From the NCBI GenBank assembly GCA_038503075.1, contig JBCAML010000003.1:2914001-2978000 (forward strand): a stretch of 64,000 nucleotides of DNA, in the 5' to 3' direction. Each line of letters starts with the position of its first letter. The first letter of the stretch is position 1. Source of the stretch: Gyromitra esculenta (Eukaryota; Ascomycota; Pezizomycetes; Pezizales; Discinaceae). A program made the translations under genes and the position numbers. Below are positions 1,940-43,254 of this stretch, piece by piece. A model generated the notes under the pieces. It made no database searches. It was not told the origin of the DNA and saw only the letters and a program-made list of their open reading frames with translations.

Positions 1940-1987
1940 ATTAAACATTAAAAAAATTGAGTAGGTGTGTTGATCCTACTGTTTAAT
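1940..1987 (+). other. Helitron 5'-terminal hairpin
   Basis: ATTAAAC at 1940-1946 pairs with GTTTAAT at 1981-1987. Nested inside, AGTAGG (1960-1965) pairs with CCTACT (1975-1980) around a 9-nt loop. The first base is the host A. The end starts TT, not the canonical TC. The same structure is present at the right copy's 5' end. Confidence 0.65.
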
Positions 1988-2942
1988 ATAACGCTAAACC
2001 AGATTAGACACTTTTTGCCAGATTTGGAAGCACATCAATTTTCTTGATATTTAGATTTTATATATGATATCGCTATATGTATCAAAACACATGTTATTGT
2101 TATAATTACTTTTATAAGGTATCGTGAATAGTACATCATCCAAATAGTTTGCTTTACAAATATTCAAATTCACTTTTGAACCTTTTCCCTTCATGTTCTT
2201 TCTTCGAGCCAATCCTAACATAAAATTTTAGTGTTTTTGTCTTCTCACTTCAATACTTCAACGCTAATTATTGCTCGATTCACCATTCTCAACAACATTC
2301 AAAAACCCTAACCCTTCTTGATGTCATTCCCCAAACCTTCACAAATATCATTCGTATGCTTGGATACACAATCATACTAAACATTAGATTGTGTTGCTTT
2401 TTCAGCCTACGTCACCTACAACTTTGTTGTTGTATGAATAGTGTTGGACATCGTACATTTTGAACCAGATCGCTTCTTATTCTTTCCTTTTGCTCTGAAT
2501 CAGCTGATTCACCTCATTCTTAGTTTGAGCTATCAACTCTCACCATGTGCCTTTCCGCATTCAATTTCCTATTTTAGCCCGTGGCAAGTTATTTCCTGCT
2601 CGATTAAACCTGTTTGGTATGTAGTACGTGTGATCTTAGAGCAGTTGTTAAGCTCAATTGCACAGACTTCTTTGATATCTGTACAGAATCGGCATAATTT
2701 TTGGTTTCTCTTGATTTCGCTTATTTCTTCTCTTTTGGTGTGTATGTTATAATTAGTTCCTGTGTTATAGCTTTGGACATGACGTGTTAAATACCCCATG
2801 ATTCCCACCTGGGTTTTCATTCTCCGCTTTCTTCTTCTTCTTTCAAACATTCGGGGTTTACTTCAGTCACCCTTACCTTTACCAACTCACACTTTTGGAT
2901 GAACATTTTTCACACAGTATCAATTGTAAGTATTATTTCCAC

Positions 2943-4190
2943 ATGCCTATTTATTATTCTTTCGTTGGCAGAATCTCCTCAATTTCTGGTGTGGGTGGAT
3001 TCAAATCGGCAAAAGTCCTTCATCATGATGCAGATGGTGCATCCCGTGAGGTGTCTGTGAAGTACTACCAAAACACCGACAACACTCTCTATCCTGATCG
3101 AGTATACCTATTTTATGGCACTGTTATCTTTTTCGCTGGAAACACTCCAAAGGTTGGCTACCATCTATCATCCTTTTGTATGCCTCATACTTTTTGATTA
3201 TGCTAATAACACAAGTAGTACTCATTGATCCGTAATGTCGAGCTTATGAACAACGCACCTGCAGACAAATTTATTTCCAATGATCCATTCTGTACATCAA
3301 CTGTCACTATGCTCTCGGATCTTGAAGATATGCCCAATACAACGTATTCTCACTTTCAAGGTCAGATGTATCAGTATAATAGTGAGGCTAAAGAAGATGT
3401 GCTGGTAAGAGCTTAAATTATTCCACCTGTTAAAACAAATTTGACAAAGCTAATTTGAATCTTGTAGTGCGCTCTCACCTTTTTGATTGACACCAAAGTC
3501 CTATTGTTCGCAAAGTTGGTTAAATATTTGCATTCGGGGAAAGTACTGGATATAGCTTTCAGGTATATTTATGAGAGTGATATAGATAGAGGTAAGATCA
3601 CATCAATTACTCAACACCAATTTTTTAGCTCTCAATTTACTAAATATTTGACATTATAGCATATGGGATAACTCACGCTATAAATTTCTCACGTGATGGT
3701 GTTCCCAAAGATGACAAAGCCTCCATATTCCAAACTCCGAAGTCCAAACGCAAGGTTTTATTGGGCCCACTCAATACCTCGCCAAGTCCAATGAAGATAA
3801 TTAAGCCAGATCCAGACAGTGGTCCTGCAACACCTACAAAATCAGGAGTGTCTTCAAGCACAATACCAGGATCGCCAGGTCAGTTTCACATATAACAAGT
3901 ATTGTGGATTTTAATACTCACTACTCCTATTAGTAGGGCCCATTCGAGCTAAGCTGAACTTTGGACGAGATGCTGATAGAAGCAATCTGTTCAAACGACC
4001 GGAAGCAAGAGCGAGTCGTACTCCTTTTCATAGTCCAGAGCGTTCCGATGATCAGCCATTACCTATGGAAACTATTGATATGGTTGAGTCTTCTTCGGAC
4101 GAGGATGAATTGTCTGCTGCAGTGTCCATCCAGTCTTCAAAGTCTAAACGTGGTGGTAAAGGACAAGGGAAAGGAAAGGATAAAATGTAA
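2943..4190 (+). CDS. Helitron accessory protein, left copy (OB-fold-like, unknown function)
   Basis: Five exons give one frame of 331 residues: 2943-3152, 3219-3404, 3468-3591, 3660-3878, 3934-4190. All junctions are GT-AG and phases agree. The N-terminal half (GRISSISG, then strand-like stretches up to YLFYGTVIF) looks like an OB-fold, which would match the RPA-type single-strand-binding proteins carried by some plant Helitrons; this is inference from pattern only. The C-terminal third is disordered, with SPSP and TPTK motifs, an acidic ESSSDEDE patch and a KSKRGGKGQGKGKDK tail suggesting nuclear or nucleic-acid binding. The start is uncertain: an ATG 44 bp upstream followed by a good donor does not keep frame. 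It lies 110 bp upstream of the Rep-helicase gene on the same strand. No disabling change was seen. Confidence 0.6.
3931..3936 (+). other. Tandem splice acceptor TAGTAG
   Basis: Two consecutive TAG acceptors precede exon 5 of the accessory gene. Both keep frame and would differ by a single valine codon. The same arrangement is in the right copy at 26484-26489. Confidence 0.4.
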
Positions 4191-4299
4191 CAATAGAAGG
4201 ATTGGATACTGTATCTTTTTATATATTTTTTATATTTTCAATTTTGTCATGGTGGAATAATATAAGGGCTTTACTGATAGAGAAACTCAGTAAACCAAA

Positions 4300-7200
4300 A
4301 TGTCAATTCGCTTTCGCTCATATGTCCCTCATCGTACAACTAGCACCCAAATAGCAGGTGATATGACGAATATATCACAATCCATTGCATTGACAGCTGT
4401 ACCATCAGATGATATCCTGATGGATTCTGGTGGCCTGTTTTCTACTTTTAGTTTTGTTCAACATAGTAATCAACAATCTCGCCAATACGCAGAGTCTACC
4501 AGTAATAGAAGACCTCGATTGGACAACACTAGAAAGGAATCCTCACCAAAAACCAACATCCACAGCTCCATCCAAAGCATCTTTAGCCCTGATGTACCTT
4601 TTCAACGACTTCTTTCTAGGTTTCGAACCACTTATGACACATATTTCCCTGACTGTCCATGTTCTTTTTGTGGCATATTGATGCTTCCACGTCACGTCAA
4701 CTGGATCAATAAGGATAATAACAAAATTTATCCTCTTGTAGCTGTTTTAGGCTTTTCAGTATCCGAGAGAATGAAAAGTGGATCACCACAAATCGCTGTC
4801 TGTACTCATTGCAAGACAACTCCCAGGGAACCACCAGCTGCAGGCCCATGGCCTGACGTTCTTATCAGTTTGTCTCAACGCTCTAGGATTTTCCTAAGTC
4901 CTGTTTCTCTGCAGACAAGCTTGGGCCGCACACAAAGTCACTCTCAGACAATTAATCCTTATGCTACCTACCGCACTGTCACTGGTAAGATTTCCATCTC
5001 GTGTTCCAAATACATTGAGTGCTGAAATTAGGTAGGGAAGATGTCATTATCGAATAATGAACGTGCTGTTGCATTGTTTAGTGGCTGTATTGGTGCTTTT
5101 TTGGAAAGTTCCAATAACTCGGTTGATCAAGGTCATGATATTCAACATCTGCAACACTGCCGTGACTGGCTATTAGCAAACAATCCACTATATCACAGAT
5201 ATGATGTTCGTACTCACTTGCAACGTCATCCAGTTCCCACTGCTTCTATCTCATCATTAGCTCCACCAGAAGAGTCACGTCCAATGAATCGTCCAGATCT
5301 TGTCCTCCATCCCTTTGACTATACATCAGCAACAGCAAACGAAGATCATCGTGGATTCAGACTGCCTGTTGGATCTTTACCAGGTCCATCTTCAAGCCCT
5401 GAACATCATCATATAGGTCTCACACGATCTGATCCTGCCTTAGAACCTCTTTTGTTTCCTGTTCTCTATCCATGGGGTCAGGGTCACTGGCAGTTGGCTT
5501 CACGACAAGAAAGGATCCCTTATCACAACACTCGGTTGGCGGACACCAAGACAAAGTTAAACTCCATTGTTTCACATTATCGGGATGACCACTACTGGCC
5601 TGCATGGACTTACATGGAAATTGAAGCCTCTCGCATCTTCCAAAATAATTGCAGATTAATCAAAGGCCAAGCTCAACGATCAGCAGATCAACGATATACT
5701 GCTTCTCAACTACTCCAACCCAGTCAATATGGTTCTTGGTCCATCCTCAACGAAGAACTCACTACCACGATTCCCAAGTTTATTCGAACTGGTGATACCT
5801 TTTTCAGTACTGCTGAGGCCAAGATTCGTTGTATGCTTCAAACATTTGGGGTTCCAACACTATTTGTCACAACAACCTTCTCAGAACGTTGGCCAAAGTA
5901 TCAGCAAATTCTCCTTCAAACTGGCAACCATGATACCTTACCCTCCAATCGCCCATGGGATGCTATTCAATACTACTATGAACGTTGGCACTGGATCAAA
6001 ACAACCTATTTTCGTGGATCAACTGTCTCAGGCTTTGGTCAGTTGCGGGAGCTGGTGGAACGTCATGAATTTCAACTGCGTGGCGCTATTCACACTCATT
6101 CACTTCTTTGGACAGAATTTGATCAATCAGAGTTAATTGGCAAAGCCTTTATCCGTGCAGATATTCCTGATCCAGAAATGGAATCTGAGTTGTATGAGCT
6201 GGTCTTGATGCATCAAATACATCACTGCCATATCCATCTTTGTGGGCGTGATGATACAATGACAGGCCCATGCCGTAAAGGCTTTCCTGCAGAATTGTCA
6301 CCAATCACGTTCCAAAAGCCAGGAGAAGTCAGATACACATACCGCAGGCTGACTGAAGCTGATCAGTATGTTGTTCCGTACTGCCCACAACTTCTTCTCC
6401 TGTGGCAGGCTCATTGCAATGTCCAGTACTGCACTTCCGGAGGTCTGGCAAAATACATTTCAAAGTATGTCACAAAAGCTGAACCAAAATCTTTGGTTGA
6501 TATCAGGAGTGAGAATCATACCACATCACATCTTCTTTCGTAGGATGGGTTCAATGGAGTGCATGGTTTTGTTATTGAGCTTTCCCATCTTTCAAATGTC
6601 GAGTGGCTGTTTGTATCTTCCAACCTCTATTCCTGCTGAACGAACATCAGTTGTCAAACCTGCTTGGCTTCTCGAACAGCAAGCTGACGATGACACACCC
6701 TACTATCCCGATGCATTAGAAAAGTATTTTGCTCGACCAGCACATCCCATGTTTGAGAGACTTACATATTTCCACTATCATTCTTATTATAAGCTGGAAC
6801 GGAGAAAAAGGAGAAGTGAAGGCAATTATTGGCCTGACAAAAATGGAAACTTTGTATATGCCCGTAAAAAGGTAAAGTTGTGTCAAAGGTTTGCTTGAAT
6901 ATTTGTTAACATGGAATATAGCCTGTCCTGATCCGTACTGTTCATCGTCGGTCAGCTGATGGTGATTCATTCTTTTTCGTCAAACTTCTTCAACTGAAGC
7001 CATGGAGATCTGACGAAGAGATCTTTGGTAACGGCAACTTCACTACTTACAAAGATCACATGTTAGCTCAGTTTCCAAATCTCTATCATGATTTGATGTC
7101 AACATACCGGTCAGGAATCCATCAACATTCACTTCAGCAAGCAGATATTTACCTGGAGCTCCTTGATACGATTGTCGATGGTCATTGCGTATCTGTGAAG

Positions 7201-8619
7201 TCAGTAATTCAAGACCAGTTAATTATGATGCAACGTTCTCCACTCCCAGTCCCCAACTCAATGGCAATATTTGATCTTCGTGGAGATCAATACACGGCAT
7301 ACTGTAACATTACTCAAGCAGTAGCTCAAGCTCGCTTAGGCAGCCCTGGAGTGAAATTGTTTATTACTGGCCCTGCAGGTACTGGCAAGTCCTATTTGCT
7401 TCGTGCCTTACAGCAATGGTTTTCAAGTCAGCGTATGGAGTTCCTGTTACTTGCACCTACTGGAATAGCTGCCAACAACATAAATGGTCAAACGATTCAC
7501 TGTGCCCTTCACATTGGTGGTCATGGAGATGGTGGTGGACTGAAATCGAACATCTTTCAGTCAACGGAAAAGCTTCACCAACTCAAAAAAGTCAGGGTTC
7601 TGATTATTGATGAGATATCCATGGTTAACTCTGACCTATTTGAATTCATATCCTCTCTCTTTGCTCACCTTCACAACAATATCAAGCCTTTTGGTAACCT
7701 CCATGTATTGTGTTTGGGCGATTTGTTGCAATTGCCTCCTGTCACCGGAAAGAAGATTTTCTTTTCACCAATATGGAGGCTTTTCAGTCCAATATTTCTG
7801 CGGAATCAATGCGTCAACGTGAGGATCCTGCCTTTTTTAACCTATTAAACGATCTGCGCTTTGGCAACATCAGTCCTGCCAGCAGTGAAATAATTCAACA
7901 AAATGTTCAAGCCTTTCACGCCCCTGCAAAAACCTACCTAACAACTTATTTGGTCTCTTTTCGCCAAACAGCCAACAAAATCAACAATCTTCTTCTTGAT
8001 ACCCTACCTGACACTATGAGACATGTCTTCCATGCAATTGATCGAGAGGAAGGACAACTTCTATCAAAGGAATCACATGAACGTACCTTCAAAAAAGGTA
8101 CCAACTATCCTGTGGAGGTTGTCTGTGTACTTGAAGCAAAAGTAATGTTTTTAAATAACACATTACTCTCTGTTGAGTATCCAATGGGCCCTGTGGGGTG
8201 ATTGTTGCCATTCGAGAAGAAAGACTACCGACTGTAGCATTCCCTACTATTGAGGGTATACGGGTAAGATGAAAATATGCATTGTTTAGTAAACAGTCAG
8301 TAACTAACATGCAATGTAGATGGTGGAAATACAACTTGATACAGTCCACTTTCGCAGCTATGGAATCCTATATTCCAGGACTCAGTTGCCAATTCAAAAT
8401 GCTTTCGCACTCACGATCCACAAAACACAAGGGCTCTCCTTGAACAATATTTGCGTTGCATTAGATCAAACCCTTTTTAGTGCTGGTCAGGCGTATACTG
8501 CATTAAGTAGGGCCAAACGCTGGGAAGATGTCAGTATCTCCTGTTTTGATTCATTAGCAGTAAAATTTGACATTGAGGCTGTGAAAGAATATGAGAGATT
8601 GGCGGTGTTGGTATCATAA
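4300..8619 (+). pseudogene. Helitron Rep-helicase, left copy (frameshifted)
   Basis: Exons correspond to 4300-4984, 5036-6871, 6922-8264 and 8320-8619 by comparison with the right copy. Against that copy there is a 2-bp deletion near 6538 (TTTCTCG to TTTCG), a 1-bp deletion near 7802 (GGG to GG), a 1-bp deletion near 8176 (GAAG to GAG) and a 1-bp insertion near 8221 (AAA to AAAA). The protein therefore breaks after the Rep tyrosine motif and again after the helicase Walker motifs. The Rep HUH motif (AIHTHSLLW), the YISKYVTK tyrosine motif and the GPAGTGKS P-loop are all still readable in separate frames. All indels fall in short runs, so recent decay or consensus error are both possible. Confidence 0.88.
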
Positions 8620-9220
8620 ATCATAGTAGTGTGTTCAGTGCTGGTGCCAATTGTCATGAATATTTGATGTCAAAAAAATTAAGAGATCGAGAAGTGGAAA
8701 GTAGATGGTTATACTGTAGCTAATTAGTGGTAACGAGGAAAATAAGGTCGGGAGAGTTTAATAAACTAAGGGGTGATTAGTCTCAAGAGAATGGTAAATT
8801 GTTCCGGGACTGTTAAAATGATTGTGGTGGTAACAAGGTAACAGTCTCAAAGAAAGTAGAAAAACAGTATTTAGTAACGAGGAAGTAAATAGTGGTAGCC
8901 AGGATGCTGCATGTGGCAGTTGAAAAATTTGTAGTAAGGTAAAACCATGCAGATAATGCTGTTTGATGTTCTTGCTAAAACATTGGTAACAGTAATCGTA
9001 ATTATATTAGTAGTAGTAGTTGGAGATATAGAACACTGGCATAAAAGATATTCATTTTCTTGATCGTTAGTAGAGTAAACCTGTTCGAACAGCATCTAAA
9101 TATAGAGGGTTAGTACTTACTGCCTAGTGCCATGCAATATAACACACAAATGACCTGTTAACATTCCATACCGTAAAGACACTCAACTCGTAAATCACAC
9201 ATGAATACAAAGAAAATCCA
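8620..9220. other. Helitron internal non-coding segment
   Basis: Spacer between the convergent 3' ends of the helicase and dioxygenase genes, near-identical in both Helitron copies (21195-21795 in the right copy). AT-rich, with TAGTAGTAGTAG-like runs. No gene is supported; it presumably holds both transcripts' 3' ends. Confidence 0.5.
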
Positions 9221-10773
9221 CTAATTATTACATCTTGGCTTTTCCTGCCTCATACCCTTTTGCCTTTCCCTCTTTGCTTCTCGTAGCTCAGCTCTATGAC
9301 TCTTTCTGTCCTTTTTTTTCTTTGCCAATCCTTTTTCCATTCTCTTTTTCCCTTTACTCTTACCGTACTTTTGATTTCCTACCTTTTCATTGTATCTATC
9401 AAGTTTGTCAAAATTGCCTTTTGCAGTAAAAAGATCAATAGAGTTCCTTGTCCCCTCTGTGATCTCTGTCACCTTGTGAGCAATTAGAGTTCCCAAAAAC
9501 ATAAAGCATTCACCAACGCCAACCTGAATCTTCATTTTCAGTTGCCATAAAACCAAATCTCCACCTTTGAATCCTGTCCCATATGGTGCCATTGCATTAA
9601 AACAAGTAGGCAGGTCCATCCAATCCTGATGTGTAGCTGATACATCTCCTTGCTGCCCTCTATTGATACAAACCCCATGCCAGGCACCTGCAGCAGGTGT
9701 TAATGCCTTCCCCGCTTTGGTTTTGTATGTTGCCATATGTTTAACAACAGGGCCCGTGAACTTCACCCACTGTTCTGGTGCTTGCATTCTCAGTTCGTAG
9801 GAGATTGCCTCAAATAGTTCCTGATTTTCCTTCAACCATTTATCAGCAATAGGCTGATCCCTTTTTGTCTCTGCTGTCTCCATCATTCTCTTATTGTAAT
9901 GAGCCCACACACCATAATGCCTTGTGTCATATACACCCCGTGCAAGTGAATCTCCACCTCCTCCCCTTTTCCTGGTAGTGCGATCAGGCAGCAATGCATC
10001 AGATTCTGTCAAAGTTTGCACCTGTGATTTTGCAAGCTTGAATCTGTATCCCAATAAAACTCCTTCCTGATCACGGACTTCCAAATCTCCCATGCTAGAA
10101 GGGTAGAATGCAAAGGTATGAATGGCTTCTGTGTGCTCTGTGATGCTTGCCATCAACTTTTGTTCTCCATGATACCTTTCTTTCAAAAGTGTGTAGGAAA
10201 TTGGAGAGCGAACAACAAAAATATTTTGGATCGCTTTCCATGACTGGTAGATGGTAGTAACTTCTGTCTCAACAGTGCTGCCCTTAGGAATTTGATATGG
10301 GAAGTTGCTGTATTTGAATGCTTTGCTGTCCATCAAGTGACGGATTCTGGATAGTGTATCATTCGAAGCGGAAGCGGAAAGGGATTTGGAAGCGGAGGCG
10401 GAGGCGAGAGCGGAGCGGAAGCTACGGAAGCGGAAAGGGATTTGGAAGCGGAGGTTGAGGCGGAGGCGGAAGCGGAGGCGGAAGCGGAACCTATGGAAGC
10501 GGAAGTGGAAGTGGAAGTGGAAGCGGAAGCGGAAGTGGGGGTGGAGGCGGAGGCGGGAGAAGTGGAAGAGGTGGAAGCGGGGGTGGAGGCAGTAGAAGTG
10601 GAGGAAGTTGAAGCAGAGGCTGAGGCGGAAGCGGAAGCAGGAGCAGTGGAAGAGGAAGCGGAGGCGGAAGCGGAGGCGGAGGTGGAAGCGGAAGCTGTGG
10701 AAGCGGGAGCTGTGGACGCGGGAGCTGTGGAAGTGGGAGCTGTGGAAGCGGAAGCGGAAGCGGAAAAAGGCAT
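9221..10773 (-). pseudogene. TET/JBP-like dioxygenase, left copy (frameshifted)
   Basis: This is the left copy of the gene intact at 19641-21194. It is antisense to the Rep-helicase. One A is missing near 10414 relative to the right copy, inside the Ser-Ala hexanucleotide repeat. The 146-residue N-terminal frame therefore runs out of phase before the catalytic domain. The catalytic part (9221-10336) is open and keeps the iron-binding THQDW motif, the distal AHKVTEI histidine and the GTRNS arginine. It could be translated from the internal methionine just after the repeat, giving 370 residues without the low-complexity region. Identity to the other copy is very high, so the break is recent or an error. 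Confidence 0.8.
10360..10770 (-). repeat. (TCCGCT)n-like coding microsatellite
   Basis: A long imperfect hexanucleotide array encodes alternating Ser-Ala/Ser-Thr in the dioxygenase N-terminus. The complementary strand gives open Glu-Ala and Arg-Lys frames that are artefacts of the repeat. Matching array: 19645-20050. Confidence 0.8.
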
Positions 10774-11234
10774 TTTAAATCTATTGGTCTCCTGTCAGCT
10801 TAATGCTGACGGTTGAATGCGGTATTGATGAGTAGCGAGTTTTTGCATGTTTGCCTCCTGCGCGAGGGTTCTTTTGCATGTTTGCCTCCTGCGAGAGGGT
10901 TCTTTGCCTTGACCTCGTGCACAGGAATTTTACCCTCTTTATTGAGCAGCGAGAAGTGGGGCCGGGAAGCCTTACACCCAGGCGGACCGTATTGCCACGC
11001 GTCACCGTCAAAAATTGACGTTGTAGTAGCCAGGTCCCTGACCAACAGTACGTATACCATTGGTGCGGTCATAGGAATTCTCAACTAGCTTGCTACACAA
11101 AGAACGCGAATGGAACTAGTACCAAGGCCGAAGCCAAAGCCATACAGGGACAGGGACAGGGACAGGAACGAGGTTGCGAGCGAAGAAACTGACAGGAGAA
11201 CGTTAAACGAACCTTGAAGTATAATAAAAGCAGT

Positions 11235-11320
11235 TGGTAGGCAGAGAATAGAAGGCAGGCGGAGCGCGGTAGGCAGGCGGAGCGCGGTAGGCAGGCGGAG
11301 CGTTGTAGGCAGGCAGGCTG
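11235..11320. repeat. 18-bp tandem repeat, about 3 units
   Basis: Units of GGCGGAGCGCGGTAGGCA lie in the Helitron 3' subterminal region. The right copy has about five units (19075-19165), so the array differs between otherwise near-identical arms. Confidence 0.7.
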
Positions 11321-11593
11321 AGAGTCGTTTGGTGGGAACTGTGGGGTTAAGGTTTTGGGGTGGGCTGCTCGACCAGAGTGCTTGGGCGGGTGCTGCTAGG
11401 GTGGGGGCTGCTTGGGTGGAGGCTGCTCAGGCGGGGGCTGTTAGAGAAGAGCTTGAGGCGTAGGAGAAAAGCTTTGGATCGAGAGTTGATGGGCGGGCAT
11501 AAGATGTGGTGATGTATAGGCGAGGTGTTGACTTCGTTAGGGGTGGCTGGAGCAAACAGAAAATCGAAGGACGGGTAACACGCCAAGGATAGT

Positions 11594-11641
11594 TACCCTG
11601 CCCTGGCCCAGCGGTCCCACAAATAGGGTATCAAAAACTAG
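11594..11641 (+). other. Helitron 3' terminus: hairpin and CTAG
   Basis: TACCCT (11594-11599) can pair with AGGGTA (11625-11630). Seven bases later the element ends in CTAG (11638-11641), followed by host T. The matching end of the right copy starts at 18752. Confidence 0.75.
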
Positions 11642-18751: not shown

Positions 18752-18799
18752 CTAGTTTTTGATACCCTTTTTGTGGGACCGCTAGGCCAGGGCAGGGTA
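18752..18799 (-). other. Helitron 3' terminus, right copy
   Basis: CTAG at 18752-18755, then the TACCC/GGGTA hairpin arms near 18762-18768 and 18793-18799. Structure as in the left copy, with small substitutions in the loop. Confidence 0.7.
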
Positions 18800-19074
18800 A
18801 CTATCCTTGGCGTGTTACCCGTCCTTCGATTTTCTGTTTGCTCCAGCCACCCCTAACGAAGTCAACACCTCGCCTATACATCACCACATCTTATGCCCGC
18901 CCATCAACTCTCGATCCAAAGCTTTTCTCCTACGCCTCAAGCTCTTCTCTAACAGCCCCCGCCCGAGCAGCCTCCGCCCGAGCAGCCCCCGCCCAAGCAC
19001 TCTGGTCGAGCAGCCCACCCCAAAACCTTAACCCCACAGTTCCCACCAAACGACTCTCAGCCTGCCTGCCTACA

Positions 19075-19165
19075 ACGCTCCGCCTGCCTACCGCGCTCCG
19101 CCTGCCTACCGCGCTCCGCCTGCCTACCGCGCTCCGCCTGCCTACCGCGCTCCGCCTGCCTTCTA
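19075..19165. repeat. 18-bp tandem repeat, about 5 units
   Basis: Units of CCTGCCTACCGCGCTCCG. About two more units than in the left Helitron copy. Confidence 0.75.
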
Positions 19166-19506
19166 TTCTCTGCCTACCAACTGCTTTTATTATACTTCAA
19201 GGTTCGTTTAACGTTCTCCTGTCAGTTTCTTCGCTCGCAACCTCGTTCCTGTCCCTGTCCCTGTCCCTGTATGGCTTTGGCTTCGGCCTTGGTACTAGTT
19301 CCATTCGCGTTCTTTGTGTAGCAAGCTAGTTGAGAATTCCTATGACCGCACCAATGGTATACGTACTGTTGGTCAGGGACCTGGCTACTACAACGTCAAT
19401 TTTTGACGGTGACGCGTGGCAATACGGTCCGCCTGGGTGTAAGGCTTCCCGGCCCCACTTCTCGCTGCTCAATAAAGAGGGTAAAATTCCTGTGCACGAG
19501 GTCAAG

Positions 19507-19577
19507 GCAAAGAACCCTCTCGCAGGAGGCAAACATGCAAAAGAACCCTCGCGCAGGAGGCAAACATGCAAAAACTC
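19507..19577. repeat. About 30-bp direct repeat, 2 units
   Basis: AAGAACCCTC-CGCAGGAGGCAAACATGCAAA occurs twice in tandem, 60-130 bp upstream of the dioxygenase start. Also present in the left copy (about 10830-10905). It could be a promoter element; no function is shown. Confidence 0.55.
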
Positions 19578-19640
19578 GCTACTCATCAATACCGCATTCA
19601 ACCGTCAGCATTAAGCTGACAGGAGACCAATAGATTTAAA

Positions 19641-21194
19641 ATGCCTTTTTCCGCTTCCGCTTCCGCTTCCACAGCTCCCACTTCCACAGCTCCCGCGTCC
19701 ACAGCTCCCGCTTCCACAGCTTCCGCTTCCACCTCCGCCTCCGCTTCCGCCTCCGCTTCCTCTTCCACTGCTCCTGCTTCCGCTTCCGCCTCAGCCTCTG
19801 CTTCAACTTCCTCCACTTCTACTGCCTCCACCCCCGCTTCCACCTCTTCCACTTCTCCCGCCTCCGCCTCCACCCCCACTTCCGCTTCCGCTTCCACTTC
19901 CACTTCCACTTCCGCTTCCATAGGTTCCGCTTCCGCCTCCGCTTCCGCCTCCGCCTCAACCTCCGCTTCCAAATCCCTTTCCGCTTCCGTAGCTTCCGCT
20001 TCCGCTCTCGCCTCCGCCTCCGCTTCCAAATCCCTTTCCGCTTCCGCTTCGAATGATACACTATCCAGAATCCGTCACTTGATGGACAGCAAAGCATTCA
20101 AATACAGCAACTTCCCATATCAAATTCCTAAGGGCAGCACTGTTGAGACAGAAGTTACTACCATCTACCAGTCATGGAAAGCGATCCAAAATATTTTTGT
20201 TGTTCGCTCTCCAATTTCCTACACACTTTTGAAAGAAAGGTATCATGGAGAACAAAAGTTGATGGCAAGCATCACAGAGCACACAGAAGCCATTCATACC
20301 TTTGCATTCTACCCTTCTAGCATGGGAGATTTGGAAGTCCGTGATCAGGAAGGAGTTTTATTGGGATACAGATTCAAGCTTGCAAAATCACAGGTGCAAA
20401 CTTTGACAGAATCTGATGCATTGCTGCCTGATCGCACTACCAGGAAAAGGGGGGGAGGTGGAGATCCACTTGCACGGGGTGTATATGACACAAGGCATTA
20501 TGGTGTGTGGGCTCATTACAATAAGAGAATGATGGAGACAGCAGAGACAAAAAGGGATCAGCCTATTGCTGATAAATGGTTGAAGGAAAATCAGGAACTA
20601 TTTGAGGCAATCTCCTACGAACTGAGAATGCAAGCACCAGAACAGTGGGTGAAGTTCACGGGCCCTGTTGTTAAACATATGGCAACATACAAAACCAAAG
20701 CGGGGAAGGCATTAACACCTGCTGCAGGTGCCTGGCATGGGGTTTGTATCAATAGAGGGCAGCAAGGAGATGTATCAGCTACACATCAGGATTGGATGGA
20801 CCTGCCTACTTGTTTTAATGCAATGGCACCATATGGGACAGGATTCAAAGGTGGAGATTTGGTTTTATGGCAACTGAAAATGAAGATTCAGGTTGGCGTT
20901 GGTGAATGCTTTATGTTTTTGGGAACTCTAATTGCTCACAAGGTGACAGAGATCACAGAGGGGACAAGGAACTCTATTGATCTTTTTACTGCAAAAGGCA
21001 ATTTTGACAAACTTGATAGATACAATGAAAAGGTAGGAAATCAAAAGTACGGTAAGAGTAAAGGGAAAAAGAGAATGGAAAAAGGATTGGCAAAGAAAAA
21101 AAAGGACAGAAAGAGTCATAGAGCTGAGCTACGAGAAGCAAAGAGGGAAAGGCAAAAGGGTATGAGGCAGGAAAAGCCAAGATGTAATAATTAG
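19641..21194 (+). CDS. TET/JBP-like 2-oxoglutarate/Fe(II) dioxygenase carried by Helitron
   Basis: Single-exon gene, 517 residues. Residues 1-147 are Ser/Ala/Thr/Pro low complexity from a hexanucleotide repeat. The catalytic core follows: VCINRG, then THQDW with the iron ligands H382 and D384, then YGTGFKGGDLVL, then AHKVTEI with the distal ligand H433, and GTRNSIDLF with R443 placed to bind 2-oxoglutarate. This HxD...H...R layout, with the GG-L turn and the basic neighbourhood, is that of the fungal TET/JBP family, which oxidises 5-methylcytosine or thymine in DNA. The last 50 residues are strongly Lys/Arg-rich, suggesting nuclear and DNA binding. It is convergent with the Rep-helicase gene and lies within the element borders. 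In fungi this family is known next to KDZ transposons; a Helitron host is unusual. Substrate is inferred, and another nucleic-acid oxygenase is possible. Confidence 0.8.
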   Translation: MPFSASASASTAPTSTAPASTAPASTASASTSASASASASSSTAPASASASASASTSSTSTASTPASTSSTSPASASTPTSASASTSTSTSASIGSASASASASASTSASKSLSASVASASALASASASKSLSASASNDTLSRIRHLMDSKAFKYSNFPYQIPKGSTVETEVTTIYQSWKAIQNIFVVRSPISYTLLKERYHGEQKLMASITEHTEAIHTFAFYPSSMGDLEVRDQEGVLLGYRFKLAKSQVQTLTESDALLPDRTTRKRGGGGDPLARGVYDTRHYGVWAHYNKRMMETAETKRDQPIADKWLKENQELFEAISYELRMQAPEQWVKFTGPVVKHMATYKTKAGKALTPAAGAWHGVCINRGQQGDVSATHQDWMDLPTCFNAMAPYGTGFKGGDLVLWQLKMKIQVGVGECFMFLGTLIAHKVTEITEGTRNSIDLFTAKGNFDKLDRYNEKVGNQKYGKSKGKKRMEKGLAKKKKDRKSHRAELREAKRERQKGMRQEKPRCNN

Positions 21195-21795
21195 TGGATT
21201 TTCTTTGTATTCATGTGTGATTTACGAGTTGAGTGTCTTTACGGTATGGAATGTTAACAGGTCATTTGTGTGTTATATTGCATGGCACTAGGCAGTAAGT
21301 ACTAACCCTCTATATTTAGATGCTGTTCGAACAGGTTTACTCTACTAACGATCAAGAAAATGAATATCTTTTATGCCAGTGTTCTATATCTCCAACTACT
21401 ACTACTAATATAATTACGATTACTGTTACCAATGTTTTAGCAAGAACATCAAACAGCATTATCTGCATGGTTTTACCTTACTACAAATTTTTCAACTGCC
21501 ACATGCAGCATCCTGGCTACCACTATTTACTTCCTCGTTACTAAATACTGTTTTTCTACTTTCTTTGAGACTGTTACCTTGTTACCACCACAATCATTTT
21601 AACAGTCCCGGAACAATTTACCATTCTCTTGAGACTAATCACCCCTTAGTTTATTAAACTCTCCTGACCTTATTTTCCTCGTTACCACTAATTAGCTACA
21701 GTATAACCATCTACTTTCCACTTCTCGATCTCTTAATTTTTTTGACATCAAATATTCACGACAATTGGCACCAGCACTGAACACACTACTATGAT
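21195..21795. other. Helitron internal non-coding segment, right copy
   Basis: Counterpart of 8620-9220. Spacer between convergent genes with no supported gene. Confidence 0.5.
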
Positions 21796-24700
21796 TTATG
21801 ATACCAACACCGCCAATCTCTCATATTCTTTCACAGCCTCAATGTCAAATTTTACTGCTAATGAATCAAAACAGGAGATACTGACATCTTCCCAGCGTTT
21901 GGCCCTACTTAATGCAGTATACGCCTGACCAGCACTAAAAAGGGTTTGATCTAATGCAACGCAAATATTGTTCAAGGAGAGCCCTTGTGTTTTGTGGATC
22001 GTGAGTGCGAAAGCATTTTGAATTGGCAACTGAGTCCTGGAATATAGGATTCCATAGCTGCGAAAGTGGACTGTATCAAGTTGTATTTCCACCATCTACA
22101 TTGCATGTTAGTTACTGACTGTTTACTAAACAATGCATATTTTCATCTTACCCGTATACCCTCAATAGTAGGGAATGCTACAGTCGGTAGTCTTTCTTCT
22201 CGAATGGCAACAATCACCCCACAGGTCCCATTGGATACTTCAACAGAGAGTAATGTGTTATTTAAAAACATTACTTTTGCTTCAAGTACACAGACAACCT
22301 CCACAGGATAGTTGGTACCTTTTTTGAAGGTACGTTCATGTGATTCCTTTGATAGAAGTTGTCCTTCCTCTCGATCAATTGCATGGAAGACATGTCTCAT
22401 AGTGTCAGGTAGGGTATCAAGAAGAAGATTGTTGATTTTGTTGGCTGTTTGGCGAAAAGAGACCAAATAAGTTGTTAGGTAGGTTTTTGCAGGGGCGTGA
22501 AAGGCTTGAACATTTTGTTGAATTATTTCACTGCTGGCAGGACTGATGTTGCCAAAGCGCAGATCGTTTAATAGGTTAAAAAAGGCAGGATCCTCACGTT
22601 GACGCATTGATTCCCGCAGAAATATTGGACTGAAAAGCCTCCATATTGGTGAAAAGAAAATCTTCTTTCCGGTGACAGGAGGCAATTGCAACAAATCGCC
22701 CAAACACAATACATGGAGGTTACCAAAAGGCTTGATATTGTTGTGAAGGTGAGCAAAGAGAGAGGATATGAATTCAAATAGGTCAGAGTTAACCATGGAT
22801 ATCTCATCAATAATCAGAACCCTGACTTTTTTGAGTTGGTGAAGCTTTTCCGTTGACTGAAAGATGTTCGATTTCAGTCCACCACCATCTCCATGACCAC
22901 CAATGTGAAGGGCACAGTGAATCGTTTGACCATTTATGTTGTTGGCAGCTATTCCAGTAGGTGCAAGTAACAGGAACTCCATACGCTGACTTGAAAACCA
23001 TTGCTGTAAGGCACGAAGCAAATAGGACTTGCCAGTACCTGCAGGGCCAGTAATAAACAATTTCACTCCAGGGCTGCCTAAGCGAGCTTGAGCTACTGCT
23101 TGAGTAATGTTACAGTATGCCGTGTATTGATCTCCACGAAGATCAAATATTGCCATTGAGTTGGGGACTGGGAGTGGAGAACGTTGCATCATAATTAACT
23201 GGTCTTGAATTACTGACTTCACAGATACGCAATGACCATCGACAATCGTATCAAGGAGCTCCAGGTAAATATCTGCTTGCTGAAGTGAATGTTGATGGAT
23301 TCCTGACCGGTATGTTGACATCAAATCATGATAGAGATTTGGAAACTGAGCTAACATGTGATCTTTGTAAGTAGTGAAGTTGCCGTTACCAAAGATCTCT
23401 TCGTCAGATCTCCATGGCTTCAGTTGAAGAAGTTTGACGAAAAAGAATGAATCACCATCAGCTAAGCGACGATGAACAGTACGGATCAGGACAGGCTATA
23501 TTCCATGTTAACAAATATTCAAGCAAACCTTTGACACAACTTTACCTTTTTACGGGCATATACAAAGTTTCCATTTTTGTCAGGCCAATAATTGCCTTCA
23601 CTTCTCCTTTTTCTCCGTTCCAGCTTATAATAAGAATGATAGTGGAAATATGTAAGTCTCTCAAACATGGGATGTGCTGGTCGAGCAAAATACTTTTCTA
23701 ATGCATCGGGATAGTAGGGTGTGTCATCGTCAGCTTGCTGTTCGAGAAGCCAAGCAGGTTTGACAACTGATGTTCGTTCAGCAGGAATAGAGGTTGGAAG
23801 ATACAAACAGCCACTCGACATTTGAAAGATGGGAAAGCTCAATAACAAAACCATGCACTCCATTGAACCCATCCTACGAGAAAGAAGATGTGATGTGGTA
23901 TGATTCTCACTCCTGATATCAACCAAAGATTTTGGTTCAGCTTTTGTGACATACTTTGAAATGTATTTTGCCAGACCTCCGGAAGTGCAGTACTGGACAT
24001 TGCAATGAGCCTGCCACAGGAGAAGAAGTTGTGGGCAGTACGGAACAACATACTGATCAGCTTCAGTCAGCCTGCGGTATGTGTATCTGACTTCTCCTGG
24101 CTTTTGGAACGTGATTGGTGACAATTCTGCAGGAAAGCCTTTACGGCATGGGCCTGTCATTGTATCATCACGCCCACAAAGATGGATATGGCAGTGATGT
24201 ATTTGATGCATCAAGACCAGCTCATACAACTCAGATTCCATTTCTGGATCAGGAATATCTGCACGGATAAAGGCTTTGCCAATTAACTCTGATTGATCAA
24301 ATTCTGTCCAAAGAAGTGAATGAGTGTGAATAGCGCCACGCAGTTGAAATTCATGACGTTCCACCAGCTCCCGCAACTGACCAAAGCCTGAGACAGTTGA
24401 TCCACGAAAATAGGTTGTTTTGATCCAGTGCCAACGTTCATAGTAGTATTGAATAGCATCCCATGGGCGATTGGAGGGTAAGGTATCATGGTTGCCAGTT
24501 TGAAGGAGAATTTGCTGATACTTTGGCCAACGTTCTGAGAAGGTTGTTGTGACAAATAGTGTTGGAACCCCAAATGTTTGAAGCATACAACGAATCTTGG
24601 CCTCAGCAGTACTGAAAAAGGTATCACCCGTTCGAATAAACTTGGGAATCGTGGTAGTGAGTTCTTCGTTGAGGATGGACCAAGAACCATATTGACTGGG

Positions 24701-26119
24701 TTGGAGTAGTTGAGAAGCAGTATATCGTTGATCTGCTGATCGTTGAGCTTGGCCTTTGATTAATCTGCAATTATTTTGGAAGATGTGAGAGGCTTCAATT
24801 TCCATGTAAGTCCATGCAGGCCAGTAGTGGTCATCCCGATAATGTGAAACAATGGAGTTTAACTTTGTCTTGGTGTCCGCCAACCGAGTGTTGTGATAAG
24901 GGATCCTTTCTTGTCGTGAAGCCAACTGCCAGTGACCCTGACCCCATGGATAGAGAACAGGAAACAAAAGAGGTTCTAAGGCAGGATCAGATCGTGTGAG
25001 ACCTATATGATGATGTTCAGGGCTTGAAGATGGACCTGGTAAAGATCCAACAGGCAGTCTGAATCCACGATGATCTTCGTTTGCTGTTGCTGATGTATAG
25101 TCAAAGGGATGGAGGACAAGATCTGGACGATTCATTGGACGTGACTCTTCTGGTGGAGCTAATGATGAGATAGAAGCAGTGGGAACTGGATGACGTTGCA
25201 AGTGAGTACGAACATCATATCTGTGATATAGTGGATTGTTTGCTAATAGCCAGTCACGGCAGTGTTGCAGATGTTGAATATCATGACCTTGATCAACCGA
25301 GTTATTGGAACTTTCCAAAAAAGCACCAATACAGCCACTAAACAATGCAACAGCACGTTCATTATTCGATAATGACATCTTCCCTACCTAATTTCAGCAC
25401 TCAATGTATTTGGAACACGAGATGGAAATCTTACCAGTGACAGTGCGGTAGGTAGCATAAGGATTAATTGTCTGAGAGTGACTTTGTGTGCGGCCCAAGC
25501 TTGTCTGCAGAGAAACAGGACTTAGGAAAATCCTAGAGCGTTGAGACAAACTGATAAGAACGTCAGGCCATGGGCCTGCAGCTGGTGGTTCCCTGGGAGT
25601 TGTCTTGCAATGAGTACAGACAGCGATTTGTGGTGATCCACTTTTCATTCTCTCGGATACTGAAAAGCCTAAAACAGCTACAAGAGGATAAATTTTGTTA
25701 TTATCCTTATTGATCCAGTTGACGTGACGTGGAAGCATCAATATGCCACAAAAAGAACATGGACAGTCAGGGAAATATGTGTCATAAGTGGTTCGAAACC
25801 TAGAAAGAAGTCGTTGAAAAGGTACATCAGGGCTAAAGATGCTTTGGATGGAGCTGTGGATGTTGGTTTTTGGTGAGGATTCCTTTCTAGTGTTGTCCAA
25901 TCGAGGTTTTCTATTACTGGTAGACTCTGCGTATTGGCAAGATTGTTGATTACTATGTTGAACAAAACTAAAAGTAGAAAACAGGCCACCAGAATCCATC
26001 AGGATATCATCTGATGGTACAGCTGTCAATGCAATGGATTGTGATATATTCGTCATATCACCTGCTATTTGGGTGCTAGTTGTACGATGAGGGACATATG
26101 AGCGAAAGCGAATTGACAT
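21796..26119 (-). CDS. Helitron Rep-helicase (RepHel), intact copy
   Basis: Four exons on the minus strand (25435-26119, 23546-25383, 22152-23495, 21796-22095) join in phase to 1,388 residues. This is the rolling-circle transposase: the HUH Rep nuclease nicks and joins DNA, and the PIF1-family helicase unwinds it. An N-terminal Cys pattern (C119, C121, C124, C168, C171) suggests a zinc motif. The Rep domain shows AIHTHSLLW (H581, H583) and YISKYVTK (Y702 and Y706, two candidate catalytic tyrosines). The helicase shows GPAGTGKS (991-998), IIDEIS (about 1069-1074), GDLLQLPPV (1107-1115), FALTIHKTQG (1318-1327) and YTALSRAK (1348-1355). All expected catalytic motifs are present. The accessory gene lies just upstream on the same strand. 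Intron 1 uses the second of two nearby AGs (GGTAG) to keep frame. Confidence 0.92.
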
Positions 26120-26229
26120 TTTGGTTTACTGAGTTTCTCTATCAGTAAAGCCCTTATATTATTCCACCATGACAAAATTGAAAATATAAAAAATATAAAA
26201 AAAAGATACAGTATCCAATCCTTCTATTG

Positions 26230-27477
26230 TTACATTTTATCCTTTCCTTTCCCTTGTCCTTTACCACCACGTTTAGACTTTGAAGACTGGATGGACACTG
26301 CAGCAGACAATTCATCCTCGTCCGAAGAAGACTCAACCATATCAATAGTTTCCATAGGTAATGGCTGATCATCGGAACGCTCTGGACTATGAAAAGGAGT
26401 ACGACTCGCTCTTGCTTCCGGTCGTTTGAACAGATTGCTTCTATCAGCATCTCGTCCAAAGTTCAGCTTAGCTCGAATGGGCCCTACTAATAGGAGTAGT
26501 GAGTATTAAAATCCACAATACTTGTTATATGTGAAACTGACCTGGCGATCCTGGTATTGTGCTTGAAGACACTCCTGATTTTGTAGGTGTTGCAGGACCA
26601 CTGTCTGGATCTGGCTTAATTATCTTCATTGGACTTGGCGAGGTATTGAGTGGGCCCAATAAAACCTTGCGTTTGGACTTCGGAGTTTGGAATATGGAGG
26701 CTTTGTCATCTTTGGGAACACCATCACGTGAGAAATTTATAGCGTGAGTTATCCCATATGCTATAATGTCAAATATTTAGTAAATTGAGAGCTAAAAAAT
26801 TGGTGTTGAGTAATTGATGTGATCTTACCTCTATCTATATCACTCTCATAAATATACCTGAAAGCTATATCCAGTACTTTCCCCGAATGCAAATATTTAA
26901 CCAACTTTGCGAACAATAGGACTTTGGTGTCAATCAAAAAGGTGAGAGCGCACTACAAGATTCAAATTAGCTTTGTCAAATTTGTTTTAACAGGTGGAAT
27001 AATTTAAGCTCTTACCAGCACATCTTCTTTAGCCTCACTATTATACTGATACATCTGACCTTGAAAGTGAGAATACGTTGTATTGGGCATATCTTCAAGA
27101 TCCGAGAGCATAGTGACAGTTGATGTACAGAATGGATCATTGGAAATAAATTTGTCTGCATGTGCGTTGTTCAAAAGCTCGACATTACGGATCAATGAGT
27201 ACTACTTGTGTTATTAGCATAATCAAAAAGTATGAGGCATACAAAAGGATGATAGATGGTAGCCAACCTTTGGAGTGTTTCCAGCGAAAAAGATAACAGT
27301 GCCATAAAATAGGTATACTCGATCAGGATAGAGAGTGTTGTCGGTGTTTTGGTAGTACTTCACAGACACCTCACGGGATGCACCATCTGCATCATGATGA
27401 AGGACTTTTGCCGATTTGAATCCACCCACACCAGAAATTGAGGAGATTCTGCCAACGAAAGAATAATAAATAGGCAT
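26230..27477 (-). CDS. Helitron accessory protein, intact copy (OB-fold-like, unknown function)
   Basis: Exons 27268-27477, 27016-27201, 26829-26952, 26542-26760 and 26230-26486 (minus strand) give 331 residues. Exon lengths are identical to those of the left copy, which supports the gene model. The N-terminal part resembles an OB-fold by strand pattern; a middle segment (CALTFLIDTKVLLFAKLVKY) is helical and hydrophobic. The C-terminal part is Ser/Pro-rich and ends in a basic, Gly/Lys-rich tail after an acidic cluster. No domain could be recognised with certainty. By analogy with Helitrons that carry RPA-like genes, it may bind single-stranded DNA during rolling-circle transposition. Conservation of splice sites and frame in both copies argues for a functional gene. 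The first exon is uncertain. Confidence 0.65.
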
Positions 27478-28431
27478 GTGGAAATAATACTTACAATTGA
27501 TACTGTGTGAAAAATGTTCATCCAAAAGTGTGAGTTGGTAAAGGTAAGGGTGACAGAAGTAAACCCCGAATGTTTGAAAGAAGAAGAAGAAAGCGGAGAA
27601 TGAAAACCCAGGTGGGAATCATGGGGTATTTAACACGTCATGTCCAAAGCTATAACACAGGAACTAATTATAACATACACACCAAAAGAGAAGAAATAAG
27701 CGAAATCAAGAGAAACCAAAAATTATGCTGATTCTGTACAGATATCAAAGAAGTCTGTGCAATTGAGCTTAACAACTGCTCTAAGATCACACGTACTACA
27801 TACCAAACAGGTTTAATCGAGCAGGAAATAACTTGCCACGGGCTAAAATAGGAAATTGAATGCGGAAAGGCACATGGTGAAAGTTGATAGCTCACACTAA
27901 GAATGAAGTGAATCAGCTGATTAAGAGCAAAAAGAAAGAATAAGAAGCGATCTGGTGCAAAATGTACGATGTCCAACACTATTCATACAACAACAAAGTT
28001 GTAAGTGACGTAGGCTGAAAAAGCAACACAATCTAATGTTTAGTATGATTGTGTATCCAAGCATACGAATGCTATTTGTGAAGGTTTGGGGAATGACATC
28101 AAGAAGGGTTAGGGTTTTTGAATGTTGTTGAGAATGGTGAATCGAGCAATAATTAGCGTTGAAGTATTGAAGTGAGAAGACAAAAACACTAAAATTTTAT
28201 GTTAGGATTGGCTCGAAGAAAGAACATGAAGGGAAAAGGTTCAAAAGTGAATTTGAATATTTGTAAAGCAAACTATTTGGATGATGTACTATTCACGATA
28301 CCTTATAAAAGTAATTATAACAATAACATGTGTTTTGATACATATAGCGATATCATATATAAAATCTAAATATCAAGAAAATCGATGTGCTTCCAAATCT
28401 GGCAAAAAGTGTCTAATCTGGTTTAGCGTTA

Positions 28432-28480
28432 TATTAAACAGTAGGATCAACACACCTACTCAATTTTTTTAATGTTTAAT
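28432..28480 (-). other. Helitron 5'-terminal hairpin, right copy
   Basis: Same nested pairing as at 1940-1987, read on the minus strand: ATTAAAC with GTTTAAT and AGTAGG with CCTACT. Confidence 0.6.
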
Positions 28481-36391: not shown

Positions 36392-37760
36392 TGTAAGACC
36401 GGTACTTCTTACCGCACAGGAAATCTCCAAGAAGCATTAGATAACAATCTAGACGCTATAACCTGCCCGGTTGCTATCCACAACACAATACACAGGCGCA
36501 AGTCCTAACTGCTTCTTATGAACCGCTAAAAGATAACCGTTCTCACGGTTCAGTTCCAGTCTAAGCCCTTCTGTATCCCAGAAGGTGAGCAGAGCTACTT
36601 AAACGAGAACTGTTGCGATAAGAGCGACGAAGTTTTCTACAGGTCCTACGTGGGTTTTGAACTCAAGGCGAGTTAGGTGTGAGAGTGTTTTACAGCGACA
36701 GCGACCGCGAGGATTCTGAGATAGAATCGAGATGGTATTGAACGAATACAGCAGAAGTAAACTGAGAACGTTGCTTAAGGAGAAGAGAAGAAAACCATAG
36801 TAACCATCCAAAATCCATCCCTTATATACCCCGCAATTCCCCTCGTGACTCCTAACCGAAACACAGCCGAACAACAAAGACATTATATAGAAACCATCCT
36901 CCGTTGCAACCATTACTTCCCGAACCCTAATCCATCATCTCGCTTCATCCGTGAAAACCGTAGGGTTCAAAGTAGGGATCGAGCAAAGTTCCGTGAAGAA
37001 CTTCCAATAGTAAGGTTTTAATAACTAACGCTGAAGGGCCAAGGCCTTGCTAAGCGAGATAAAAGTAATTCACAAGTAAAAGAGTAAATTGCACGGAAGT
37101 AATTTTGCTAGAAACAATATAATATTGATAAGGTTCTTTCTTCGTCGCTAATGATCCGGCTCAGAGTTTACATCCACTGCAAGAGTATTTATAATGCCTC
37201 CTCTCTGCTATGTTTGGGTATAGTGTGGTGTAGAGATGCTAACTACTATGACAGCGTAAAACCACTTCACCTTATCTCCATACCCGATACCCGATTGAGT
37301 TCCCAGGCCCCGATCCGCGTTTCTCCGAGCAGTATGCATGTTGGTAACACCGGAGTTACGTATTTGTCTTCATTGTGTTTGTCTCTTCGAGACGATCATT
37401 TCGCCTATCCGAATCTTCGCATAGCATTGCATTCCCTTATCTTTGTCAGTCTGTAACTCTGCCAGTTTTGGTCCGATTCGCAATCTGTTTGAACCACAGC
37501 GAAGCCAGGCACTTCCCCTACATACCCTCTGGGTCCCATTCCGCCAGACGGTTTTGCTTGATGGCCTAGGGGTTACTTTTGCCCTCCGGGACAGGTCTTT
37601 TCTGGTGCTGTCCCCCCTTCTCCAAATACTATACCTACTGGAAGGATTGGAGGCAGGGTAACAGGCTCCAGTCCCGATCCGGAAGGTGCTAAAGTAGGGT
37701 AACTCCAAAGATAGGGTAACTCCAGGGCCAGGAACTCCTTCAAAAGGTACAGATATAACA
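36392..37760 (+). repeat. TG...CA solo LTR (TGTAAGACC family) with TSD CCTGG, carrying a nested LTR
   Basis: It starts TGTAAGACC and ends ATAACA. CCTGG is duplicated at 36387-36391 and 37761-37765, and it splits the LINE GVPQ|GSP codons. After removing the nested gypsy LTR (36541-36956 plus 5 bp) it is about 0.95 kb. No internal coding region was found, so it is called a solo LTR. The parent element is unknown. Confidence 0.85.
36541..36956 (-). repeat. gypsy solo LTR with TSD ACCGT, nested in another LTR
   Basis: It runs TCTCACGG...CCGTGAAA, with ACCGT at 36536-36540 and 36957-36961. The empty site is visible in the related LTR at about 60748 (GATAACCGTAGAG). The hairpin has a compensated stem CTTCTG/CAGAAG. 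Confidence 0.88.
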
Positions 37761-41382: not shown

Positions 41383-41522
41383 CTTCTCGGATCCTAAGCG
41401 AGTTGAGGTGCGGGGTAGTGAAGCCTAATTGTTAAAGACTTTTTGCTGTGTGTAACGCTGTTGCAACACAAAAAGTGGAGTTGAAATTTCAATCAGGGAT
41501 GATGTAGCGGGGACGGAGGATG

Positions 41523-41981: not shown

Positions 41982-42122
41982 AATTTCAGATTATTTTGTA
42001 TAATCCCTGGCTTCCCCCCGAATCCAACATATTAGCAATATTACGGGTTGCGGAAATTATACTCGGCGTCTACTCTACGCTGGATGATAAAATATATTGT
42101 GAATATTTTTATCGCCCGCTCG

Positions 42123-43254
42123 CTAGCAAGCCAGGTCGAACTTGGCCTTATAATTCTGATCCCACACACCCCAATGCTGCTCGACATCATTCCCTTTTTC
42201 GATAGGCTTGAAAACTTCATCAAATGCTTCAAACACAAAAACATTAACGCCCCAACCCAGCATTGCACATATACTGTCCTTCCAATAACTTGCTGCATTC
42301 TGAACGCTAGGAACGGAATCCTGGTAGTCTTGGCCACCCGTTGGCCAGTTAGTTTCGCCGACCCAGAAGTCGAATGACTTATCTTGCTTAACACTCTGAA
42401 CATGGGCAAGTGCCTCTGCCAAGATCAGCAAAATAACCATAGCCTCGATACAAGTGGAGAACATACGCATGATATCATCGAAGAACGAATGTGTTGCATT
42501 ATCCTGCTTCTGACCTTGCCAATAACTAAAAGCGTTTGCCAGAATAATGTCACTTGTTTCAATAACAGGGTTTGCATCACTTTCGATAAGTTTGTTCCAT
42601 GAATCGGCCGTTCCGATAGGGATTGAATCCGCGCCAAGTGACTTGAGGAGAGCCTTGACTTCATTGATCTTTGCCGCTAACCCTGTGCCATTAAATTCCT
42701 CTCTGTAGAGAGCCTCAGAACCGACGGTGATGGCATAGATGGAATCCGTTCCGTATATAGGGATGTATCTGTATGGCAAAAACTTTAGTGATATGCGTGG
42801 GCAGTAATCGGCAATATGCTTACTTCTTAAGGGCGGCTTTCTCAAGCGCGAAGTGGGCATCGTCATTCGGCCTTTTGAAATGGAATATGAGCATGAATCA
42901 AAATAACTCATACATTTATCCATCTTACCAAACGCCAAGAACAATCTTGAACCCTTTATCTACTACCGCAGGCATGATTTGCTCCATAGTGTTGCAATCG
43001 CTCACAGCGTAAACCCGGATGATCTTGCTTGTTCCAGCAATTACATCAAGATCCTTCTTAAAGTCGTCCGTATACTTGCACGTCCCGTCCTGTCACCCAT
43101 GAAAATTAGCTACACATTATACAACACAGCTTTCCCATAAACTACTCACAGGATTTTTCTTGACACCAAGCGAGAAACCCAGTTGTCCTGTCGCAGATAC
43201 AAGGGAGGGTAGCGCGAGAAGAGCACCCTTCAGAAGGGTAACTAGAGAAAGCAT
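42123..43254 (-). CDS. GH17 beta-1,3-glucanase (EglC/Scw/Bgl2 type)
   Basis: Five exons on the minus strand (43150-43254, 42929-43089, 42824-42871, 42467-42768, 42123-42415) give 302 residues. The N-terminus MLSLVTLLKGALLALPSLVS is a secretion signal. The mature protein starts GQLGFSLGVKKNPDGTC, as in fungal cell-wall GH17 enzymes. Acid/base E123 lies in TVGSEALYR and nucleophile E226 in WVGETNWPTGG, with NAFSYWQGQ between them. It should cut or transfer beta-1,3-glucan in the cell wall. No clear GPI-anchor tail is present: it ends KAKFDLAC. The 51-nt intron between exons 4 and 5 has no stop and is a multiple of three, so retention would insert 17 residues. It is the first intact host gene after the transposon block. 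Confidence 0.9.

Follow-up and report, generated by a model that had tools for sequence, protein, structure and literature searches.

A further Helitron with a TET-like gene in Gyromitra esculenta: copies, CpG decay and selection on the dioxygenase cargo

Helitrons encoding TET/JBP proteins were described in December 2025 from Puccinia graminis, Agaricus bisporus and five species of Pezizales (Kojima, Biology, PMC12730594). The sections of that paper available to us report TET-bearing transposons of eleven lineages, for which an escape from silencing is proposed, and sort the transposon TETs into the classes PU, AG and PE, the last one with HxE as its hallmark and with Pezizomycetes or Agaricales as hosts; the TET Helitrons of Pezizales are assigned there to Helitron1. 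Here, a stretch of 64,000 nucleotides from Gyromitra esculenta (contig JBCAML010000003.1, positions 2,914,001 to 2,978,000 of the forward strand; the whole stretch is called the window) was analyzed, within which two copies of a 9.7-kb Helitron, named W1 and W2, lie 7.1 kb apart and carry a TET-like dioxygenase gene. Work by Iyer et al. in 2014 is said to have dealt with KDZ elements. A previous sequence-only reading of the window knew of no Helitron with such cargo, a view overtaken by the published elements, its idea of counter-defence against silencing being likewise in print. The element, which may coincide with one of the published families, is a well-supported further example of the TET-carrying Helitrons described in 2025 rather than a new kind. 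Evidence of independent insertion and of an empty site, a selection test, a record of CpG decay and an HxD motif as opposed to the stated HxE are what is added to the available text of PMC12730594. As in the PE-type Helitrons of Pezizales presented in that text, a TET/JBP-like gene is found inside a fungal element, and Tuber aestivum, source of the one dioxygenase relative found under an organism name (43% identity), belongs to the same order.

Searching the 47.1-Mb genome with the dioxygenase DNA gave 17 matches over the full length and further partial ones, and 12 of these 17 full-length copies (W1, W2 and ten others) were read from end to end; those outside this set are C19, C18, C12:630272, C13 and C8. 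The two copies of the window are the following:

18752..28479, minus strand (sense of the Rep-helicase): Helitron copy W2, 5' end at 28479 (TTAAAC...), 3' CTAG at 18752-18755 with host TT adjoining
1941..11641, plus strand: Helitron copy W1, inverted with respect to W2 and 99.69% identical to it

In all 12 copies read, the element starts with TTAAAC and ends with CTAG in the sense of Rep, host TT follows directly after CTAG, and the dioxygenase gene lies between these same exact ends. The flanks of W1 and W2 are unrelated (best local scores of 9-17 over 150 bases), so a segmental duplication was rejected for this pair. Copies C22 and C12a went into two copies of one repeat at points 13 bases apart and face opposite ways; once joined, their flanks align gap-free, in such a way that each is the empty site of the other; a TT duplication there is indistinguishable from none, because the element begins with TT and host TT follows. 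These data agree with the earlier proposal that the gene is cargo and not a neighbor, and the duplication of a chance neighbor, named then as what would overturn it, did not come true for W1 and W2. The claim of two independently flanked copies of the gene is borne out as to exact ends and flanks, but only in part as to the gene, whose frame in W1 is broken when read from the original ATG. Not all of the 12 insertion sites are unrelated, since two groups (C22/C10/C12a/C12c and C5/C16a) lie inside copies of one repeat each; C12a and C12c have their left flank in common, exact over 100 bases, and this pair may be partly a duplication. For the other six copies the flank score was never above 30. 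Counted over aligned bases, the divergence of the elements from W2 is 0.3-2.1%, and the copies represent several independent insertions of a recently active autonomous Helitron.

The dioxygenase and Rep-helicase genes are placed tail to tail, the dioxygenase being the one closer to the 3' end. The features of the Helitron machinery are:

21796..26119, minus strand: Rep-helicase gene of W2, predicted 1,388 amino acids, exons 26119-25435, 25383-23546, 23495-22152 and 22095-21796
4294..8201, plus strand: Rep-helicase frames of W1, broken, the first stop being codon 731
28434..28479, minus strand: 5'-terminal imperfect palindrome TTAAACA...AGTAGG...CCTACT...TGTTTAA, from folding against shuffles

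The predicted introns of 51, 50 and 56 bases are all GT..AG and leave one frame across the four exons, and the product matches PF14214 (E 2.2e-13) and PF05970 (E 1.4e-31) of Pfam. We take its HTH, at residue 581, and its YISKY, at residue 702, to be the HUH motif and the paired tyrosines of Rep, and the Walker A and B and later motifs of a PIF1-type helicase are in frame over the predicted introns in the same protein. The gene is open in three of the 12 copies (W2, C20 and C17). A dioxygenase match was found within about 10 kb of 18 of the 21 main Rep loci, those on C4, C9 and C6 being without a full one.

When compared with the terminal features of Helitron subclasses as given in the accessible part of PMC5148889, the element is like canonical Helitron1 in its HUH/YxxxY Rep with PIF1 helicase and in its 3' CTAG (CTRR) with host T next to it in all 12 copies, but it differs in beginning with TT and not TC (12 of 12), in its 5' palindrome and in a 5' host base that is A in just seven copies, being G in three and T in two. 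The 5' palindrome is common to this element and Helitron2, whose asymmetric terminal inverted repeat was unmatched: when the 5' end of W2 was compared with its last 400 bases, no exact inverted repeat of 7-14 bases was found, in a search that a diverged repeat would escape. In the four copies examined, the 5' palindrome folded better than 190-194 of its 200 mononucleotide shuffles. A candidate for the hairpin that Helitron1 has 10-12 nucleotides before its 3' end is formed by ACCCT/AGGGT arms, which finish around 11-12 nucleotides before the element end but fold no better than shuffles. The termini fully fit neither published subclass.

Homolog searches with the dioxygenase yielded 11, 16 and 19 proteins, and the residue counts given here refer to 20 aligned proteins, namely that of the window and 19 relatives. 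Left out of the count were P0007, a fragment, and P0021, a weak match (E 1e-6), which by eye both have HxD (HQD and HYD). The gene and its parts are:

19641..21194, plus strand: TET-like dioxygenase gene, intact in W2, 517 amino acids, open from ATG to stop
19641..20054, plus strand: N-terminal Ser/Ala-rich low-complexity part, a short tandem repeat of variable length among copies
20055..21191, plus strand: catalytic part and basic C-terminal helix, 379 amino acids modelled
20784..20792, plus strand: H382-Q-D384, iron-binding HxD, from the alignment
20799..20801, plus strand: D387, three residues past the HxD Asp, aligned with TET2 N1387, NgTet1 D234 and CMD1 D350
20937..20939, plus strand: H433, distal iron ligand, in 20 of 20 proteins
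20967..20969, plus strand: R443, presumed 2-oxoglutarate-binding Arg, in 20 of 20 proteins
9221..10774, minus strand: dioxygenase gene of W1, catalytic frame open, frame from the original ATG broken by a stop at codon 147, in the repeat-rich N-terminus

The first iron motif is HxD in 17 of the 20 proteins, RxD in three and HxE in none, and the residue three past the HxD Asp is D in 17 and N in three. The iron triad and the distal Arg are complete in the window protein and in 16 of the 19 relatives, active-site residues being retained in most of them at 20-55% identity. The HxD motif separates these proteins from the PE type, a separation made with respect to the description in the available part of PMC12730594 and not to its sequences; no Agaricomycete-named protein was found among the homologs when Agaricus or Laccaria proteins of PE type were looked for.

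The catalytic part is predicted to adopt the double-stranded beta-helix of TET type. A first AlphaFold model, built with 12 sequences, had a predicted local distance difference test (pLDDT) score of 79.8, with values below 50 at the HxD loop, and a second one, with 20 sequences, had a mean of 85.8 and a block mean of 84 at that loop. In structural comparisons TETs ranked first for both models, with scores for the second of 23.5 for CcTet, 20.2 for NgTET1, 17.8 for TET2 and 16.0 for CMD1, and of 13.1 and lower for non-TET dioxygenases. Identities to the cargo are low, being 12% for CcTet (Coprinopsis cinerea; AG type, Kyakuja-related) and 10-18% for NgTET1, human TET2 and CMD1, the latter three not known to us as transposon cargo. 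A sequence search of the PDB gave no match, and a scan of IMG/VR with the protein alignment gave 49 pattern stretches and no relative. The sequence-only reading had thus been right on the open frame at 19641-21194, on H382/D384, H433 and R443, on the basic C-terminal tail, which is rich in lysine and arginine, and, as far as the models go, on the fold, the absence of which it had named as a way to refute it. According to the part of PMC11040006 available to us, the residue of TET2, NgTet1 and CMD1 matching D387 bonds N4 of 5-methylcytosine (5mC) and blocks N6-methyladenine (6mA), the corresponding residue of CcTet being Gly. Because D387 stands where CcTet has Gly331, the pocket looks like that of conventional 5mC-preferring TETs, and this alignment position argues for 5mC over 6mA as the probable substrate.

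Selection was studied over the 12 copies, broken ones included, with expected changes calculated from the mutation rates of the non-coding parts of the element. For the dioxygenase, 36 nonsynonymous changes were found against 62.5 expected and 25 synonymous ones against 19.9 expected, a ratio of 0.46 (p 0.004). The same test gave 0.48 for Rep (p 0.002), 0.56 for the helicase (p 0.03) and 0.43 for the first open reading frame (p 0.03), these p-values being approximate because sites share ancestry. The cargo is under purifying selection about as strong as that on Rep. From ATG to the original stop it is open in six of the 12 copies (W2, C22, C10, C20, C16a and C17), among which are the three whose Rep-helicase is open. 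The Ser/Ala tandem repeat changes in length among them, the six intact proteins spanning 408-546 amino acids.

The copies also keep a record of methylation. Private changes among them amount to 389, of which 223 are C-to-T; CpG accounts for 112 of these when the majority context is used and for 108 when each copy's own context is. The former count represents 112 of 502 CpG sites, compared with 111 of 3,542 other C/G sites (Fisher p 1e-46), an excess that is the mark of methylated CpG. Repeat-induced point mutation of the Neurospora kind, directed at CpA, was rejected, with 30 of 223 C-to-T changes at CpA against 1,454 of 4,152 C contexts (per-copy context). The observed/expected ratio of CpG is 0.58-0.60 in the two elements and 0.24 in the coding part of the dioxygenase, the depletion not being uniform because the G+C-rich 3' part of the element and the surroundings are also high (0.79-0.87). 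Methyltransferase-domain matches (PF00145) were found in the genome on C11, on C14 and at two places on C2, and in truffle, according to the accessible part of PMC4165359, methylation is aimed at transposons with a preference for CpG. Elsewhere in the window, positions 42001-52000, with frames of GH17 and 14-3-3 domains, show CpG ratios of 0.80-0.93, most repeat-rich parts being lower.

We consider it probable, with moderate confidence, that this recently active autonomous Helitron holds a TET/JBP-family 2-oxoglutarate/Fe(II) dioxygenase as a standing gene that oxidises the 5mC of the element and so lifts its silencing. The element would move by rolling-circle copying through nicking by Rep; the dioxygenase would be made from the element, bind DNA by its basic tail and oxidise the 5-methylcytosine laid on the element by host methyltransferases, in such a way that transcriptional silencing would be lifted for a time sufficient to produce Rep-helicase and launch further copies. 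Several data weigh against this reading. The gene is broken in six of the 12 copies, and the first iron ligand is lost in three of the 19 relatives (P0005, P0010 and P0011, mutually close). The window protein has no Pfam match at E up to 1 or then up to 10, in such a way that the profile search proposed along with the sequence-only reading found TET/JBP only through relatives: of ten compared with Pfam, three match Tet_JBP (PF12851; P0012 1.8e-4, P0017 3.4e-4, P0002 0.0052), four match 2OG-FeII_Oxy_3 and three neither, all matches being weak and below the curated cut-offs. Moreover, CpGs decay at 0.223 per site in the Helitron and at 0.097 (7 of 72) in 12 copies of a long interspersed nuclear element (LINE) family, p 0.013, or at 0.122 (9 of 74) in the eight closest LINE copies, a weak comparison, as the LINE family is older and CpG-poor and its own CpG excess is just 2-fold (p 0.098). 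The CpGs of the Helitron thus decay faster than those of the LINE, and no lasting protection is visible; because resident copies still lose CpGs, the anti-silencing effect would be transient or partial. Counter-defence, as proposed before, remains plausible in view of the methyltransferase-domain genes, the CpG decay and the purifying selection. The dioxygenase may help the Helitron to resist silencing. The system lends itself to a clean natural test of the idea that transposons bring methylation erasers along as counter-defence, combining numerous nearly identical copies, a gene that is intact and under selection, methyltransferase-domain genes and, in those copies, the mutations left by CpG methylation.

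It is rather unlikely that the enzyme is active with another output, putting a modified base that lasts or is of a different kind (5-hydroxymethylcytosine or a CMD1-like mark, for instance) on the DNA of the element or of intermediates, and not erasing methylation; a scan of the long open reading frames of the element recognised no second modification enzyme, the Rep-helicase being the only other gene identified. A captured passenger without benefit to the Helitron has precedents, since fungal Helitrons carry captured genes (PMC4289320, as far as its available part tells), and could account for the six broken copies, but selection about equal to that on Rep, the active-site residues kept in most aligned relatives, the presence of the gene near most Rep loci and its open frame in each of the three copies whose Rep-helicase is open make it distinctly improbable. 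The oxidised 5mC of basidiomycetes extends to retrotransposons and, in Laccaria, to a Helitron family (available parts of PMC12730594 and PMC8889193), and the Helitron shares its islands with the LINE family, data that could fit an action on host DNA or chromatin in general, with benefit to the host or to all transposons of the same islands. To this we assign a slight chance, as element-level selection is the simplest reading of conservation in many copies and genome-wide match searches identified no host-fixed copy, no further search for one having been made. A chance neighbor duplicated with the Helitron, or an assembly artefact, might be suspected from the near identity and proximity of W1 and W2 and from the flank common to C12a and C12c, but against the same exact ends in 12 copies, the unrelated flanks of W1 and W2 and the empty site its likelihood is negligible.

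Other TET-like sequences are present in the genome. Older, degenerate relatives of the dioxygenase are found at C4:2264966, C21 and C7:230687. At C2:360655-361707 (L029:1256-2308) there is an open intronless frame of 350 amino acids with HVD..D and the distal H and R, with one match in the genome; P0019 and P0020 of the homolog database are related to this frame. It is 22% identical to the cargo in the alignment and 28% across the matched stretch, and is possibly a host gene. Tentatively, and as a proposal that is plausible without being probable, the cargo may represent a fourth class of transposon TETs apart from PU, AG and PE, with HxD and a conventional 5mC-binding Asp/Asn pocket, captured independently by a Helitron, perhaps from the lineage of this C2 gene. 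A second, different Tet_JBP relict with four stops lies at C17:1015945-1016316 (L042:3146-3517; PF12851 38.9 bits, over the cut-off), around 1.7 kb from a frame (L042:999-1403) with a CxC..CxH finger that is presumably SWIM-like, and both are perhaps what is left of a DNA transposon, now dead, that bore a TET gene and belonged to another class.

Over 17 Helitron match places on contigs of known length, the median distance to LINE copies is 18 kb, whereas 2,000 random draws never gave less than 146 kb. On the seven contigs with several listed places, these lie within 106 kb of each other at most. Recent Helitron and LINE copies thus appear to gather in one repeat island per chromosome, and these islands are possibly centromeres. 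The window itself contains a non-long-terminal-repeat retrotransposon at 37573-41424, with an endonuclease and reverse transcriptase frame at 37573-39714, of which many copies exist at around 86-99% identity.
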